From positions 3,348,001 to 3,412,000 of the forward strand of contig NZ_JAWQJT010000001.1 in NCBI RefSeq assembly GCF_033441515.1: DNA of 64,000 nt, given 5' to 3'. Positions 7,301 to 23,200 of the stretch are shown one piece after another. This stretch comes from Amycolatopsis solani. Its GTDB lineage: Bacteria > Actinomycetota > Actinomycetes > Mycobacteriales > Pseudonocardiaceae. Below the pieces are notes generated by a model that was not told where the DNA came from, did no database searches, and was given only the letters and a program-made list of their open reading frames with translations. Made by a program: the position numbers and the translations under genes. Each line of letters starts with the position of its first letter. Positions within the stretch are counted from its first letter, which is position 1.

Positions 7301-10300
7301 CGGACCGCGGCTGGGACAGCGACGCCGTCCGCGAGGGCGGGTTCCTCACCGGCGCGGCCGAGTTCGACCCGGCGTTCTTCGGCATCAGCCCGCGCGAGGC
7401 GCTCGCGATGGACCCGCAGCAGCGGCTGGTGCTGGAAGCGGCGTGGGAGGCGTACGAGCGCGCGGGCATCCGCCCCGAGACCGTCCGCGGCCACCGCGAC
7501 GGCGTCTTCCTCGGCGCGACCTCGCACGAATACGGCCCGCGGCTGCACGAAGCCGAGGACGGCCACCTGCTGACCGGAACGACGCCGAGCCTGATCTCCG
7601 GCCGCGTCGCGCACGTCTTCGGGCTGGAAGGCCCGGCGCTCACGGTGGACACGGCGTGCTCGTCGTCGCTGGTGGCGCTGCACCTCGCGGTGCGGTCGCT
7701 GCGCGCGGGGGAGTGCGGGCTGGCGCTCGCGGGCGGCGTCACGGTGCTGTCCGGGCCGGGGATGTTCGTGGAGTTCGCCAAGCAGGGCGGCCTGTCCGCC
7801 GACGGCCGCTGCCGGGCGTTCTCGGCCGACGCGTCCGGCACGGGCTGGGCGGAAGGCGCCGGCGTGGTGCTGCTGGAGCGGCTGTCCGACGCGCGGCGCC
7901 ACGGCCACCCGGTCCTGGCACTGGTCCGCGGCACGGCGGTGAACTCCGACGGCGCGTCCAACGGCCTGACGGCCCCGAGCGGCCCGGCGCAGCGCCGCGT
8001 GATCCGCGCGGCACTGGCGGACGCCGGGCTGACGGCGTCCGATGTGGACGTCGTGGAAGCGCACGGCACGGGCACGGTCCTGGGCGACCCGATCGAGGCG
8101 TCGGCCGTGCTGGCGACGTACGGCCAGGACCGCGCGGAGCCGCTCCTGCTCGGGTCGCTGAAGTCGAACATCGGCCACGCCCAGGCGGCGGCCGGGATCG
8201 GCGGCGTGCTCAAGCTGGTGCTGGCCATGCGGCACGGGATCGTGCCGAAGACGCTGCACGTCGGCGAGCCGACCCCGCACGTGGACTGGACCTCGGGTGC
8301 GGTCGAGCTGCTCACCGAGAACCGCGCCTGGCCGGAGGTCGCGCGCCCCCGGCGTGCGGCGGTCTCGTCGTTCGGCATCAGCGGCACGAACGCCCACGCG
8401 ATCCTGGAAGCGGCTCCGGAGCGCCCCAATGTGGCGTTGGGTGCATCCAACGCACCGAACGCCACATTGGGTGCGCTGGACGCACCGAACGCCACATTGG
8501 GGCGCTTGGGGGCCGGCGTGCCGTGGGTGCTCAGCGCCAAGAGTCCGGAGGCGCTCCGGCGGCAGGCGCGTGAGCTGCGGGAACACCTCCTCGCGCACCC
8601 CGAACTGACCGCCGGGGAGGTGGCGGCGACCCTCGCTGAGCGGACCCGGTTCGAGTACCGCGCGGGGATCGTGGACGGCCGGCTCGACGCGCTGGCCGAG
8701 CACGGGACCGGGGTGGTGCGGGTCTCGAGCGGCAAGCTCGCCTTCCTCTGCACCGGCCAAGGCTCCCAGCGCGCCCGCATGGCCCAGCCCCTCTACGAAG
8801 CCGACCCGGTCTTCGCCGCCGCCCTCGACGAGGTCTTCGCCGCGCTCGACCCGCACCTGGACCGTCCACTCGAGACCGTCGTCTTCGCCGACGACACCAC
8901 CCTCCTCGACCGCACCGCCTACACCCAGCCCGCGCTCTTCGCCGTCGAGGTGGCGCTGTTCCGGCTGTTCGCGCACCACGGCGTCCACCCGGACTTCGTC
9001 GCCGGGCACTCGATCGGCGAACTCGCCGCCGCGCACGTCGCCGGGATCCTCGACCTCGCCGACGCCGCCCGGCTCGTCGCCGCCCGCGGCGCGCTCATGG
9101 ACGCACTGCCCGCCGGTGGGACGATGGCCGCCGTCGAAGCGACCGAGGACGAGGTCCGCCCCTTCGACGTCGCCCTGGCCGCGGTCAACGGCCCGATGGC
9201 GGTCGTCGTCGCCGGGGACGAAACCGCCGTCGCGGCGGTCGAAACGCACTTCGCCGGACTCGGACGGCGGACCCGGCGGCTCACCGTCAGCCACGCCTTT
9301 CACTCCCCGGCCATGGACGGCATGCTCGACGCCTTCCGCGAGGTCGCCGAGTCGGTCACGTTCCACCCGGCCCGCATCCCGCTGAGCGTCGACGGCGATC
9401 CCGCGACCGCCGGGTTCTGGGTCGGGCACGTCCGCGAGACCGTCCGCTTCGCCGACACTGTCGCCCGCCTGGCCGACGCCGGTGTCACCACCTTCGTCGA
9501 ACTCGGCCCCGACGGCGTGCTGACCGCCATGGGACGCGATTGCCTGCCGGACGGGGACTTCCTGCCGTCGCTCCGGTCCGATCGGGACGACGTCGAGGCC
9601 GTGTACCCGGTGCTGGCCGTGCTCGGCACCCCGGCCGTCACGACGTCCACAGTGGACTTGCCGACCTATCCCTTCGAAAGGCAGCGGTTCTGGCTGCCGC
9701 TGCGCTCGCTGCGCGCCGATGCCGCGGCCGCGGGGCTCACCCCGACCGGCCACCCGCTGCTCGGCGGGGGCGCCGAGGTCGCGGGCACCGACGGCGTCCT
9801 GTTCACCGGGCTCCTCTCGGTGCGCACCCAGCCATGGCTGGCCGAGCACGTCGTCCTCGGCGCGAACCTCCTGCCCGGCAGCGCTTTCGTGGAGCTCGCG
9901 CTGCTCGCCGCCGGGCAGGCGGGCTGCGACCGGCTCGACGAGCTCGTCCAGGAAACCCCGCTGGTCCTGCCCGCGGATGGCCGCGTCCAGCTCCAGGTGT
10001 CCCTCGGCGCGCCTGACGAGTCCGGCCGCCGCGCGGTGGCCGTCTCGTCGCGGCCCGACCAGCCGTCGGTGACCGCGGGCTGGACCCGCAACGCCGCCGG
10101 GTACGCCTCCGCCGGCGGGGCCGTGCCCGCGCCGGAACCGGTCTGGCCGCCCGATGGCGCCGAGCCGGTCGACCTCGACGGCCGGTACGACCGCATCGCG
10201 GACGCGGGCTTCGGCTACGGCCCCGAATTCCAGTGCCTGCGCGCGGTCTGGCGGCGGGGCGACGAGCTGTTCGCCGAGGTCGCGCTGCCCGAACACCGCG

Positions 10301-20293: not shown

Positions 20294-23200
20294 CGAACGA
20301 ACAGAAACTCCTCGACTACCTCAAGCGCGCCACCGGCGACCTGCGCGAAGCCCGCGGCCGCGTCCGGGAGCTCGAGGACCGCGCGCACGAGCCGATCGCC
20401 GTCATCGGGATGAGCTGCCGGTACCCCGGCGGCGTCACCTCGCCCGAAGACCTGTGGGCGCTGGTCGACGAGGGCCGCGACGCCGTCACGGCGTTCCCGG
20501 ACGACCGCGGCTGGGACCTCGGCAAGCTTTACGACCCGGAGTCGGCGCCCGGCACCAGCTACGTCCGGCACGGCGGTTTCCTCGACGACGTCGCCGGGTT
20601 CGACGCGGCGCTGTTCGACCTCAGCCCGCGGGAAGCCACGGCGATGGACCCGCAGCAGCGCCTGCTGCTCGAGGCCGCCTGGGAGGCGTTCGAGCGGGCC
20701 GGCATCGCGCCGGATTCCGTGCGCGGCAGCCGCACCGGCGTGTTCGCGGGCACCAATGGGCAGGACTACGGGCCGCGGCTGCACGAAGCTCCCGCCGATG
20801 TCGAAGGCCACCTACTGACCGGGCTGGCCGCGAGTGTCCTTTCCGGACGGCTCGCCTACGCGTTCGGCCTCGAAGGCCCGGCGCTCACGGTGGACACCGC
20901 GTGCTCGGCGTCGCTGGTCGCGGTGCACCTGGCGATCCGGTCGCTGCGCGCGGGGGAGTCCACGCTCGCGCTGGCGGCCGGCGTGTCGGTGATGAGCACG
21001 CCCGGCGGGTTCGTCGAGTTCAGCCGCCAGCGCGGGCTCGCCCCGGACGGCCGCTGCAAGTCCTTCGGCGCCGGCGCGGACGGCACCGGCTGGGCCGAGG
21101 GCGTCGGCGTCCTGGTGCTGGAACGCCTGTCGGACGCCCAGGCCAACGGCCACGACGTGCTGGCGGTCCTGGCGGGATCGGCGGTCAACTCCGACGGCGC
21201 GTCCAACGGCCTCACCGCGCCCAGCGGTCCCGCGCAACAGCGGGTCATCCGGGCGGCGCTCGCCGACGCGCGGCTCGTTCCGTCCGATGTGGACGCCGTC
21301 GAGGCGCACGGCACCGGGACGGTGCTGGGCGACCCGATCGAGGCGCAGGCGCTGCTGGCGACCTACGGCCAGGACCGGGCGACGCCGCTGTGGCTGGGGT
21401 CGCTGAAGTCCAACATCGGGCACGCCCAGGCCGCGGCGGGGATCGGCGGGATCATCAAGACGGTCCTCGCCCTCCGAGCGGGGATGCTGCCGCGCACGCT
21501 GCACGCCGAGGAGCGCTCACCGCACGTCGACTGGTCGAGCGGTTCGGTCTCCCTGCTCACGTCGCCCCAGCCGTGGCCTGCGGGCGACCGCCCGCGCCGG
21601 GCGGGCGTCTCGTCGTTCGGGGTCAGCGGCACGAACGCGCACGTGATCGTCGAAGAGCGCCCCAATGTGGCGTTGGGTGCATCCAACGCACCGAACGCCA
21701 CATTGGGTGCGCTGGACGCACCGAACGCCACATTGGGGCGCTTGGGGCCGTGGCTGCTGGCGGGCAAGACGGCCGAGGCGCTGCGGGCGCAGGCCGTCCG
21801 GTTGAGCGAGGTCGAGCCGAGTGTCGACGTCGCGTTTTCGCTGGCCACGACCCGGGCGCAGCTGGAGCACCGGGCCGTGATCGTCGGTGACCTGCAGGCC
21901 GGGCTGGCCGCGCTGGCCGAGGGGCGGCCCGCCGCCGGCCTCGTCCAGGGCAAGGCCCGTGCCGAGACCAAGCTCGCCTTCCTCTGCACCGGCCAGGGTG
22001 CCCAGCGACCGGGCATGGGCCGCGAGCTCTACGCCGCGTTCCCGGTGTTCGCCGCCGCGTTCGACGCCGTCTGCGCGGAGATCGACGCCCGCTGGGACGG
22101 CGCGCCGCCGCTCAAGGACGTCGTCTTCGCCGACGTCGACACGCTGCTCGACCGCACCGACTACGCGCAGGCCGGGCTGTTCGCGGTCGAGGTCGCGCTG
22201 GCCAGGCTCGTCGAGTCGTGGGGCATCCGGCCGGATGTCGTGGCCGGGCACTCACTCGGCGAGATCACCGCCGCCCACCTGGCCGGGGTGCTCTCCCTGG
22301 CCGACGCGGCCACGCTGGTCGCCGCCCGCGGCCGGCTGATGGCGGCGGTGCCCGCGGGCGGGGCCATGGCCGCGATCGAGGCGGGCGAAGCCGAACTCGA
22401 GCTGCCGCCGGAGGTCGACTTGGCCGCGGTCAACGGCCCTGCCGCGGTCGTCGTCTCCGGTCCGGAGGACGCCGTCGACGTCGTCGTCGCGCACTGGGCG
22501 GCCCAGGGGCGCCGGACCCGGCGGCTCACGACGAGCCACGCCTTCCACTCCGCCGCGATGGACCCGGTCCTCGAACCGCTGGCGGAAACCCTGCGGACAC
22601 TGGACTTCCGGCCACCGGTCGTCCCGCTGGTCTCCACCCGCACCGGGCAGGCGGCCGATGTGTCCACAGTGGAGCACTGGACCGCGCAGGTCCGGGAGCC
22701 GGTCCGGTTCGCCGACGCCGTGACGACGCTGGCCGGGCAGGACGTCACCGCTTACCTGGAACTCGGCCCCGACGGTGTGCTCACCGCGATCGCCCGTGGC
22801 CTCACCGACGCCGTGACCGCGGTCGCGCTGCGCCCGGACCGCGACGAGCCGGCCACCCTGCTGACGGCGGTCGCCACCCTGCACACCCACGGCGTCCCGG
22901 TCGACTGGACCGCGTTCTTCGCCGGCGCGCGACGCACCGAGGTGCCGACCTACGCCTTCCAGCACGAGCGGTTCTGGCTCAGCACGGACGGCCGCGCACC
23001 GGTTCGCGGCCGCCGGGCGGCGCCCGCGCGAGGCGGGAGCCTGACCGACCTGGTCCGCGCGGAGGCTGCCGCCGTGCTGGGTCACGCCGAAGCCCTCGAC
23101 GCCGATCGCGCGTTCGCCGACCTGGGCTTCGACTCGCTGACCGCCGTCGAACTCAGCTCCCGGCTCGGTACCGCGACCGGGCTGACGCTGCCCGCCACGC

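Follow-up and report, generated by a model that had tools for sequence, protein, structure and literature searches.

Palindromic elements in the polyketide synthase genes

The window analyzed here is a 64-kb stretch of the Amycolatopsis solani genome (contig C1, positions 3348001–3412000; the genome comprises 10.28 Mb in four contigs). It contains type I polyketide synthase (PKS) genes in which a palindromic element is read in frame between ketosynthase (KS) and acyltransferase (AT) domains. The first host gene (4345–17142, forward strand) encodes 4265 aa with three KS and three AT matches, and carries copies 1 and 2. The second (20290–27711, forward strand) encodes 2473 aa with a docking domain, two KS and two AT matches, and carries copy 3. 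Copy 1 (8419–8511, forward strand) occupies the KS-AT linker of module 1, with three arms oriented + − − at 30 bp spacing, and encodes a 31-residue peptide. Copy 2 (13351–13409, forward strand) in the linker of module 2 has two arms and a 20-residue peptide, and copy 3 (21655–21747, forward strand) in the linker of module 4 has arms + − − and does not differ from copy 1 in its 93 bp or its peptide. Each copy is located in frame between the KS end (GTNAH-xIxE) and a strand of 11 residues, and reading of the sequence confirmed this common position in modules 1, 2 and 4, which had been noted in a preliminary description of this DNA. Module 3, which serves as a local comparison, contains no element; its KS end motif is followed by an ordinary linker of 27 residues (18437–18550, forward strand).

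The three occupied modules are only part of the picture. We found the element in three further KS-AT linkers just downstream of the window copies (C1:3416237, 3424512 and 3434782) and in two more of a second PKS region (C1:4000483 and 4018759). In the 122 kb around the window, 6 of the 16 KS-AT linkers found by sequence motif carried it; Pfam detects at least one additional KS there that the motif overlooks. The typical peptide reads NVALGASxAPNATLG, with RP before it and, after it, R and then L, S, W or T.

Counting both strands, the window holds 8 exact copies of the arm AATGTGGCGTT. With up to two mismatches there are 13 matches against 4.46 expected, a number reached by none of 100 shuffles. 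The predicted RNA fold of copy 1 has −72.3 kcal/mol (z = −11.4), and none of 200 shuffles was equally stable. An AlphaFold model of the module-4 KS-linker domain-AT segment, built with 12 window paralogues, gave a mean pLDDT of 60.0 for KS and showed the element region as coil with block pLDDT of about 31–41; it was too weak and was not used.

Copies 1 and 3 had been described as identical over about 92 bp with flanks diverging at once. The identical length is 93 bp, and the first base beyond it differs at both ends. Module duplication as the source of this identity is rejected, as the preliminary description held, since the identity ends at the element edges.

A dispersed repeat family

Searching the whole genome with the arm gave 196 occurrences, 100 forward and 96 reverse, and none for the reversed control; pairs of facing arms 18–20 bp apart were found at 51 places. 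Exact outer-arm matches, together with two lone arms, were grouped into 80 places. The lone arms (C1:2519359 and C1:2520983) were rejected as elements, leaving 78 loci, a count in which diverged copies are missed because loci were found by exact outer arms. Seventy-five loci are arrays of at least two arms; besides the two lone arms, L066, L084 and L103 stand outside the arrays as single-arm loci. The window inserts have many copies elsewhere in the host genome.

The outer palindrome of one copy is AAGCGCCCC...GGGGCGCTT, usually holding 2 to 5 arms of 11 bp, and flank complementarity extends about 8 bp past the arms and then fades. Neighboring arms are spaced by 30 bp in 134 of 140 cases, so the gain or loss of a unit keeps the reading frame. 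With 9-bp ends included, 50 arrays measure 89 bp and 16 measure 59 bp, the two commonest lengths. Composite copies with a GC-rich inner insert between the arms were seen at L058, L074, L080, L088 and C1:3434782, and those at L058 and C1:3434782 are translated in frame in PKS genes. An Rfam search of L042, L047 and L049 gave no match and covers two of the 78 element loci, L047 containing lone arms only. The viral contigs searched had no match to the element.

Location behind genes

The usual home of the repeat is the spacer behind genes, not coding sequence: an intragenic versus intergenic count, as had been proposed for this element, gave 11 intragenic loci in one frame and placed most loci between genes. 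Genes were called with a simple purpose-made gene caller trained on the same genome, and the 63 gene pairs with an array between them include only loci with a called gene on both sides. These pairs were 34 convergent, 26 tandem and 3 divergent, compared with 9 convergent, 80 tandem and 35 divergent among 124 control pairs of the same loci with a gap of at least 20 bp (Fisher p = 2.7e-12 for convergent). In 60 of the 63 pairs, which are convergent or unidirectional, the array lies near a gene 3′ end, and the median distance from array to stop codon was 16.5 bp.

This position behind stops is the same habitat as that published for repetitive extragenic palindromic (REP) elements. For the GTAG- and CGTC-tagged families, Di Nocera 2013 (PMC3733652) places them in convergent or unidirectional 3′ spacers, in convergent pairs mostly less than 20 bp from the ends of open reading frames (ORFs), with some intragenic copies; its main text does not contain the words "Actinobacteria" or "Streptomyces". 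The matching habitat would suit a REP element mobilized by a REP-associated tyrosine (Y1) transposase (RAYT). However, PF01797 was found in none of nine genomes including that of A. solani, in a search whose control was positive in 5 of 14 named genomes. The GTAG tag was absent within 16 bp of the outer arm in all 75 arrays, CGTC was near only 12 of 75, and the Amycolatopsis repeat differs from REP elements also by its longer stem and its 30-bp arm units. We consider movement by a RAYT highly improbable.

Another explanation is that the hairpins are 3′-end parts, bidirectional terminators or mRNA stabilizers kept by selection, with the coding copies accidental. The position behind stops, the excess of convergent pairs and the strong hairpin all agree with it, and other palindromes fill the L049 spacer in several relatives. 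On the other side, TTTT was found within 20 nt of none of 150 element ends, which sets the elements apart from classical intrinsic terminators; in one relative (G267) the L049 gene pair is separated by almost no spacer; and copies inside long PKS genes would need read-through. Such selection is possible, though we do not favor it as the full account, and it is compatible with the explanation preferred below.

The L049 spacer of relatives contained the same family, arm variants, other palindromes, or copies with about 1 kb of insertion sequence (IS)-like DNA. G268 and G262 have a GTGAAGGCCTCC-family palindrome there, where A. solani has the element described here. The element copies with about 1 kb of IS-like DNA inside them are L120 (G282) and L121 (G271), and the IS-like end from L121, GGTTGTTTCATCGTG, is present beside an A. 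solani copy at L017/L041 (C1:2061101), so the repeat may be an IS target.

Coding copies and their reading frame

A minority of copies are part of proteins. These are for the most part large modular enzymes, in which the element is found between domains, and the frame used yields an Asn/Ala/Gly/Pro-rich peptide. Eight of the 11 intragenic loci are KS-AT linkers (six in the window cluster and two near C1:4.0 Mb). The others are in a nonribosomal peptide synthetase (NRPS) behind the methyltransferase domain (L070), in a polyunsaturated fatty acid (PUFA)-type synthase between AT and the acyl carrier protein (ACP) domain (L071), and in a Pro/Ala-rich stretch of a caspase-domain protein (L099, intragenic by open frame alone). 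The assignment of L065 is ambiguous.

All 11 coding copies use a single frame, reading NVAL/F...NATLG. This frame is open in 73 of the 75 arrays on one strand and in 71 on the other; the next frame is nearly as open (70 and 69), so stop codons alone do not explain the bias. The element peptide is nearly identical when read from either strand of the palindrome. The element is also rich in codons that are rare in the surrounding PKS genes, where AAT makes up 2.8% of Asn, ACA 1.8% of Thr and GCA 2.6% of Ala codons. Rare codons and hairpin together might pause ribosomes between the folding of KS and AT.

In other named strains, 80 loci with 76 arrays were scored, and two arrays came out as coding. 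One is the A. eburnea x94 copy (L253), in the same frame as the A. solani copies; the A. eburnea x86 copy (L233) has this frame too, with a score just under the coding threshold. The second, L206, had been scored in another frame and was rejected: the supposed frame is antisense to a subtilase-domain gene (5120–7768), and the element is therefore counted as a spacer between this gene and a convergent ORF (3280–5028) without Pfam match. A peptide search among proteins of similar length gave 22 PKS or NRPS clusters, one of them the A. solani NRPS, and all named organisms were Amycolatopsis. At least 16 of 23 arrays in these clusters follow a KS end; the proteins were found by the peptide, and their frame is not evidence.

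Linkers compared across relatives

The orthologous cluster was compared in four relatives (G302, G268, G262 and G282), with 91–93% identity over the module 3–4 segment. Six A. solani sites (m1, m2, m4, x86, x94 and x104) in four relatives make 24 pairs, of which 17 had a full element, one a one-arm remnant and six none. Orthologous linkers thus do not all carry the element: G282 lacks it at five sites (m2, m4, x86, x94 and x104) and retains the one-arm remnant at m1, and G268 lacks it at x94. The reverse case was found at two KS ends with ordinary linkers in the window. For that at 44268–44378 (forward strand), the matching linkers of G302 and G262, the two relatives compared, carry the element; for that at 54197–54310 (forward strand), it is present in G302, G268 and G262 and absent in G282. 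In G289, the linker at L058 is an ordinary one.

Ordinary linkers at the element-free KS-AT sites of relatives are 14–17 residues long. At x94 a nearly identical one (PPVVEPRxxEARPVL) is shared by G268 and G282 and is gone from the three element-bearing genomes. As element-bearing sites lack the ordinary linker, the element replaces the linker instead of interrupting it, and the earlier suggestion of a plain insertion did not hold; the suggestion that the element uses permissive linkers did. The sequence of the solved chain 11sz of 6-deoxyerythronolide B synthase has a shorter segment at the KS-AT element position, which fits tolerance of a flexible insert.

We compared 20 elements over a 79-bp core, leaving out those absent or not 79 bp long (A. 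solani m2, x94 and x104; all of G282; G268 x94). Within a genome, A. solani m1 and m4 are identical at 79/79 bases, as are G268 m1 and x104, whereas orthologous elements differ by up to 9 bases after the better orientation is chosen. In G262, m2 and x104 have both junctions in common (ESPERP and GRLVPWVLS). From these alignments, part of the spread inside PKS genes looks like exchange between modules.

An ancestral linker, in which one KS-AT linker had the peptide and passed it on only by PKS module recombination, would account for the identical elements within a genome and the common junctions of G262, and KS ends are well conserved between modules. But the repeat occupies 78 loci genome-wide, most of them outside PKS genes, the NRPS, PUFA-type synthase and caspase-domain protein contain it as well, and copies 1 and 3 cease to be identical right at the border of the element. 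As the whole story, this explanation is refuted and very unlikely; as a route inside the cluster, such recombination is likely.

Inverted alignment was better in 14 of 25 orthologous pairs. The best inverted pairs had 1 difference against 17–18 in direct alignment, with p = 0.06 over all pairs, which makes in-place inversion of the element plausible but not proven. A spacer copy (L094 in A. solani, L221 in A. eburnea) has its middle arm flipped between identical immediate flanks. Occupancy, unit number and orientation turn over quickly.

AT-ACP site and arm variants

In the AT-ACP linker of the PUFA-type synthase, the element was present in 9 of 28 genomes, in the same frame in all nine and with the same right junction (R or C, then S-VLET). 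In the other 19 genomes a Pro- and Val-rich ordinary linker stands there. When presence was mapped on a tree built from the flanks (747 columns), 7 changes were required (6–7 in bootstrap), at least 4 of them forced by supported branches; this is close to the mean of 7.8 for shuffled traits, and 178 of 500 shuffles were as low as 7. Presence of the element is scattered over this tree.

Arms differ between lineages in compensating pairs. The GTT/AAC form was counted 51 times in A. solani and 106 times in G302 and was absent from G239. Copies of the CTT/AAG form were lacking in A. solani and G302 and numbered 61 in G264, 60 in G291, 30 in G281 and 17 in G239, with any copies in 9 of 28 genomes. 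G302 is the closest relative by L049 match, and its 106 facing-arm palindromes, about twice the number in A. solani, indicate that copy number changes fast. The exact GTT palindrome was found in 7 of 249 sampled genomes of the family, including that of A. solani; just 16 of the others belong to the same genus. In named genomes at least 120 stretches were matched, and among the 80 matches listed 79 were Amycolatopsis and one Qaidamihabitans.

Comparison with known systems and proposed mode of spread

In-frame palindromic repeats are best known from Rickettsia. The Rickettsia palindromic elements (RPE) are, according to the review PMC10969869 and to PMC3733652, dispersed palindromes of which nearly half lie in frame inside unrelated genes and add a recurrent peptide; the review gives their length as about 150 bp. 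The Amycolatopsis repeat likewise occupies both intergenic sites and in-frame sites in unrelated genes, and its coding copies keep one frame (11/11 in A. solani and 9/9 at the AT-ACP site). It differs in its build, a 59-bp palindrome to which 30-bp units are added, in its host, a high-GC actinomycete with a 10-Mb genome, and in its concentration in megasynthase linkers, where it stands in the linker's place. In behavior, RPE are the nearest known system. Perfect inverted repeats kept within translated genes were also described from nematomorph mitochondria, where, according to PMC6649704, both arms encode conserved protein sequence; by contrast, the Amycolatopsis palindrome is dispersed and encodes a linker that relatives can lack. 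A description of the element was not found in the open-access literature searched (subscription papers were outside its scope).

The window inserts are probably coding copies of a dispersed, hairpin-forming, REP/RPE-like Amycolatopsis family that has spread by non-RAYT copying and by exchange between copies. Copies would spread by template switching at hairpins, tied to replication or repair, and gene conversion between copies may spread the repeat as well. In PKS modules, an acquired copy could be passed on by ectopic conversion anchored in the homologous KS end and the PWVLS/AT start, and the conversion tract would exchange the non-homologous linker that lies in between. In spacers behind genes the hairpin may be tolerated, or useful as a two-way 3′-end structure; within genes, survival would be largely limited to copies whose frame gives the flexible peptide.

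Several observations weigh against this explanation. No copying event was seen, and the RAYT search in nine genomes pointed to no mobilizing enzyme. The frame agreement of the 11 copies cannot be counted as 11 separate events: the eight KS-AT copies may stem from few entries, leaving only about four protein contexts in A. solani. Codon statistics support coding on both sides in 10 of the 11 intragenic loci, the caspase-domain locus L099 being unsupported. Orthologous elements are closer than permuted ones (4.52 versus 5.96 differences, p = 0.008), so vertical inheritance acts too, beside exchange. Only 5 of 25 inner branches of the AT-ACP flank tree are well supported. Linkers are hypervariable, and trimming at a later time could account for some of the apparent replacement.

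Miniature inverted-repeat transposable elements (MITEs) are short, carry inverted repeats, and occur in many copies with lineage-specific abundance. The Amycolatopsis repeat shares all of these features (compare PMC10969869), and its copies are near-identical, as would be expected of a non-autonomous DDE transposon inserted by the transposase of an IS with matching ends. However, flanking direct repeats of 3–8 bp were not in excess over permuted flanks in the 75 arrays, and linkers were replaced instead of interrupted; a partner IS with ends GCGCCCCAATGTGGC was not searched for. We regard an origin as a MITE as unlikely. The preliminary description of a mobile or recombinogenic palindrome stands in that the element is a recombinogenic repeat, and one present genome-wide. 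Mobility in the strict sense is not borne out, with no target-duplication signal and no RAYT (PF01797, nine genomes) found and with part of the spread inside the PKS resembling exchange between modules.

We might further speculate, tentatively and with rather low confidence, that the element is an exchangeable coding hairpin, one palindrome serving both as a 3′-end structure between genes and as a ready-made flexible megasynthase linker, and spread by neither RAYT nor classical transposition. As both strands give about the same peptide and the units are of 30 bp, the element can be inverted, lengthened, shortened or put in a linker's place and leave the enzyme intact. The setting is a large-genomed actinomycete with many megasynthase genes, and the repeat strikes the KS-AT connector, which PKS engineering papers reportedly use as an exchange boundary. 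Natural pairs with and without the element exist in close relatives for eight KS-AT sites (five of the window cluster, two occupied only in relatives and one in the second PKS region) and for the AT-ACP site. They open two questions to testing: the way in which small hairpin repeats spread when RAYT is absent, and the extent of change that the KS-AT connector can bear. Assembly and the inference of module recombination could also be misled by near-identical 90-bp repeats in PKS genes.

Other palindromes in the window

Four further palindromes were noted in the window. A double palindrome (19770–19834), with the TTTCACGTGAAA core twice at 41 bp distance, lies in the module-3 ORF between the AT and ACP matches; unlike the element above, it was found in an unchanged position in each of the four relatives. 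A 48-bp palindrome at 51233–51280, within the open PKS frame 38100–52841, is absent from G302, G268 and G262, and G282 has at this site a different palindrome with similar outer ends. A GTGAAGGCCTCC palindrome is located at the end of the first ORF (2425–2483). The palindrome at 27742–27804 belongs to a second repeat family (GAATGAsTCATTC), likewise spaced by 30 bp, for which 44 strand hits, corresponding to 22 motif sites, were found in 412 kb of A. solani sequence, and none for the reversed control.

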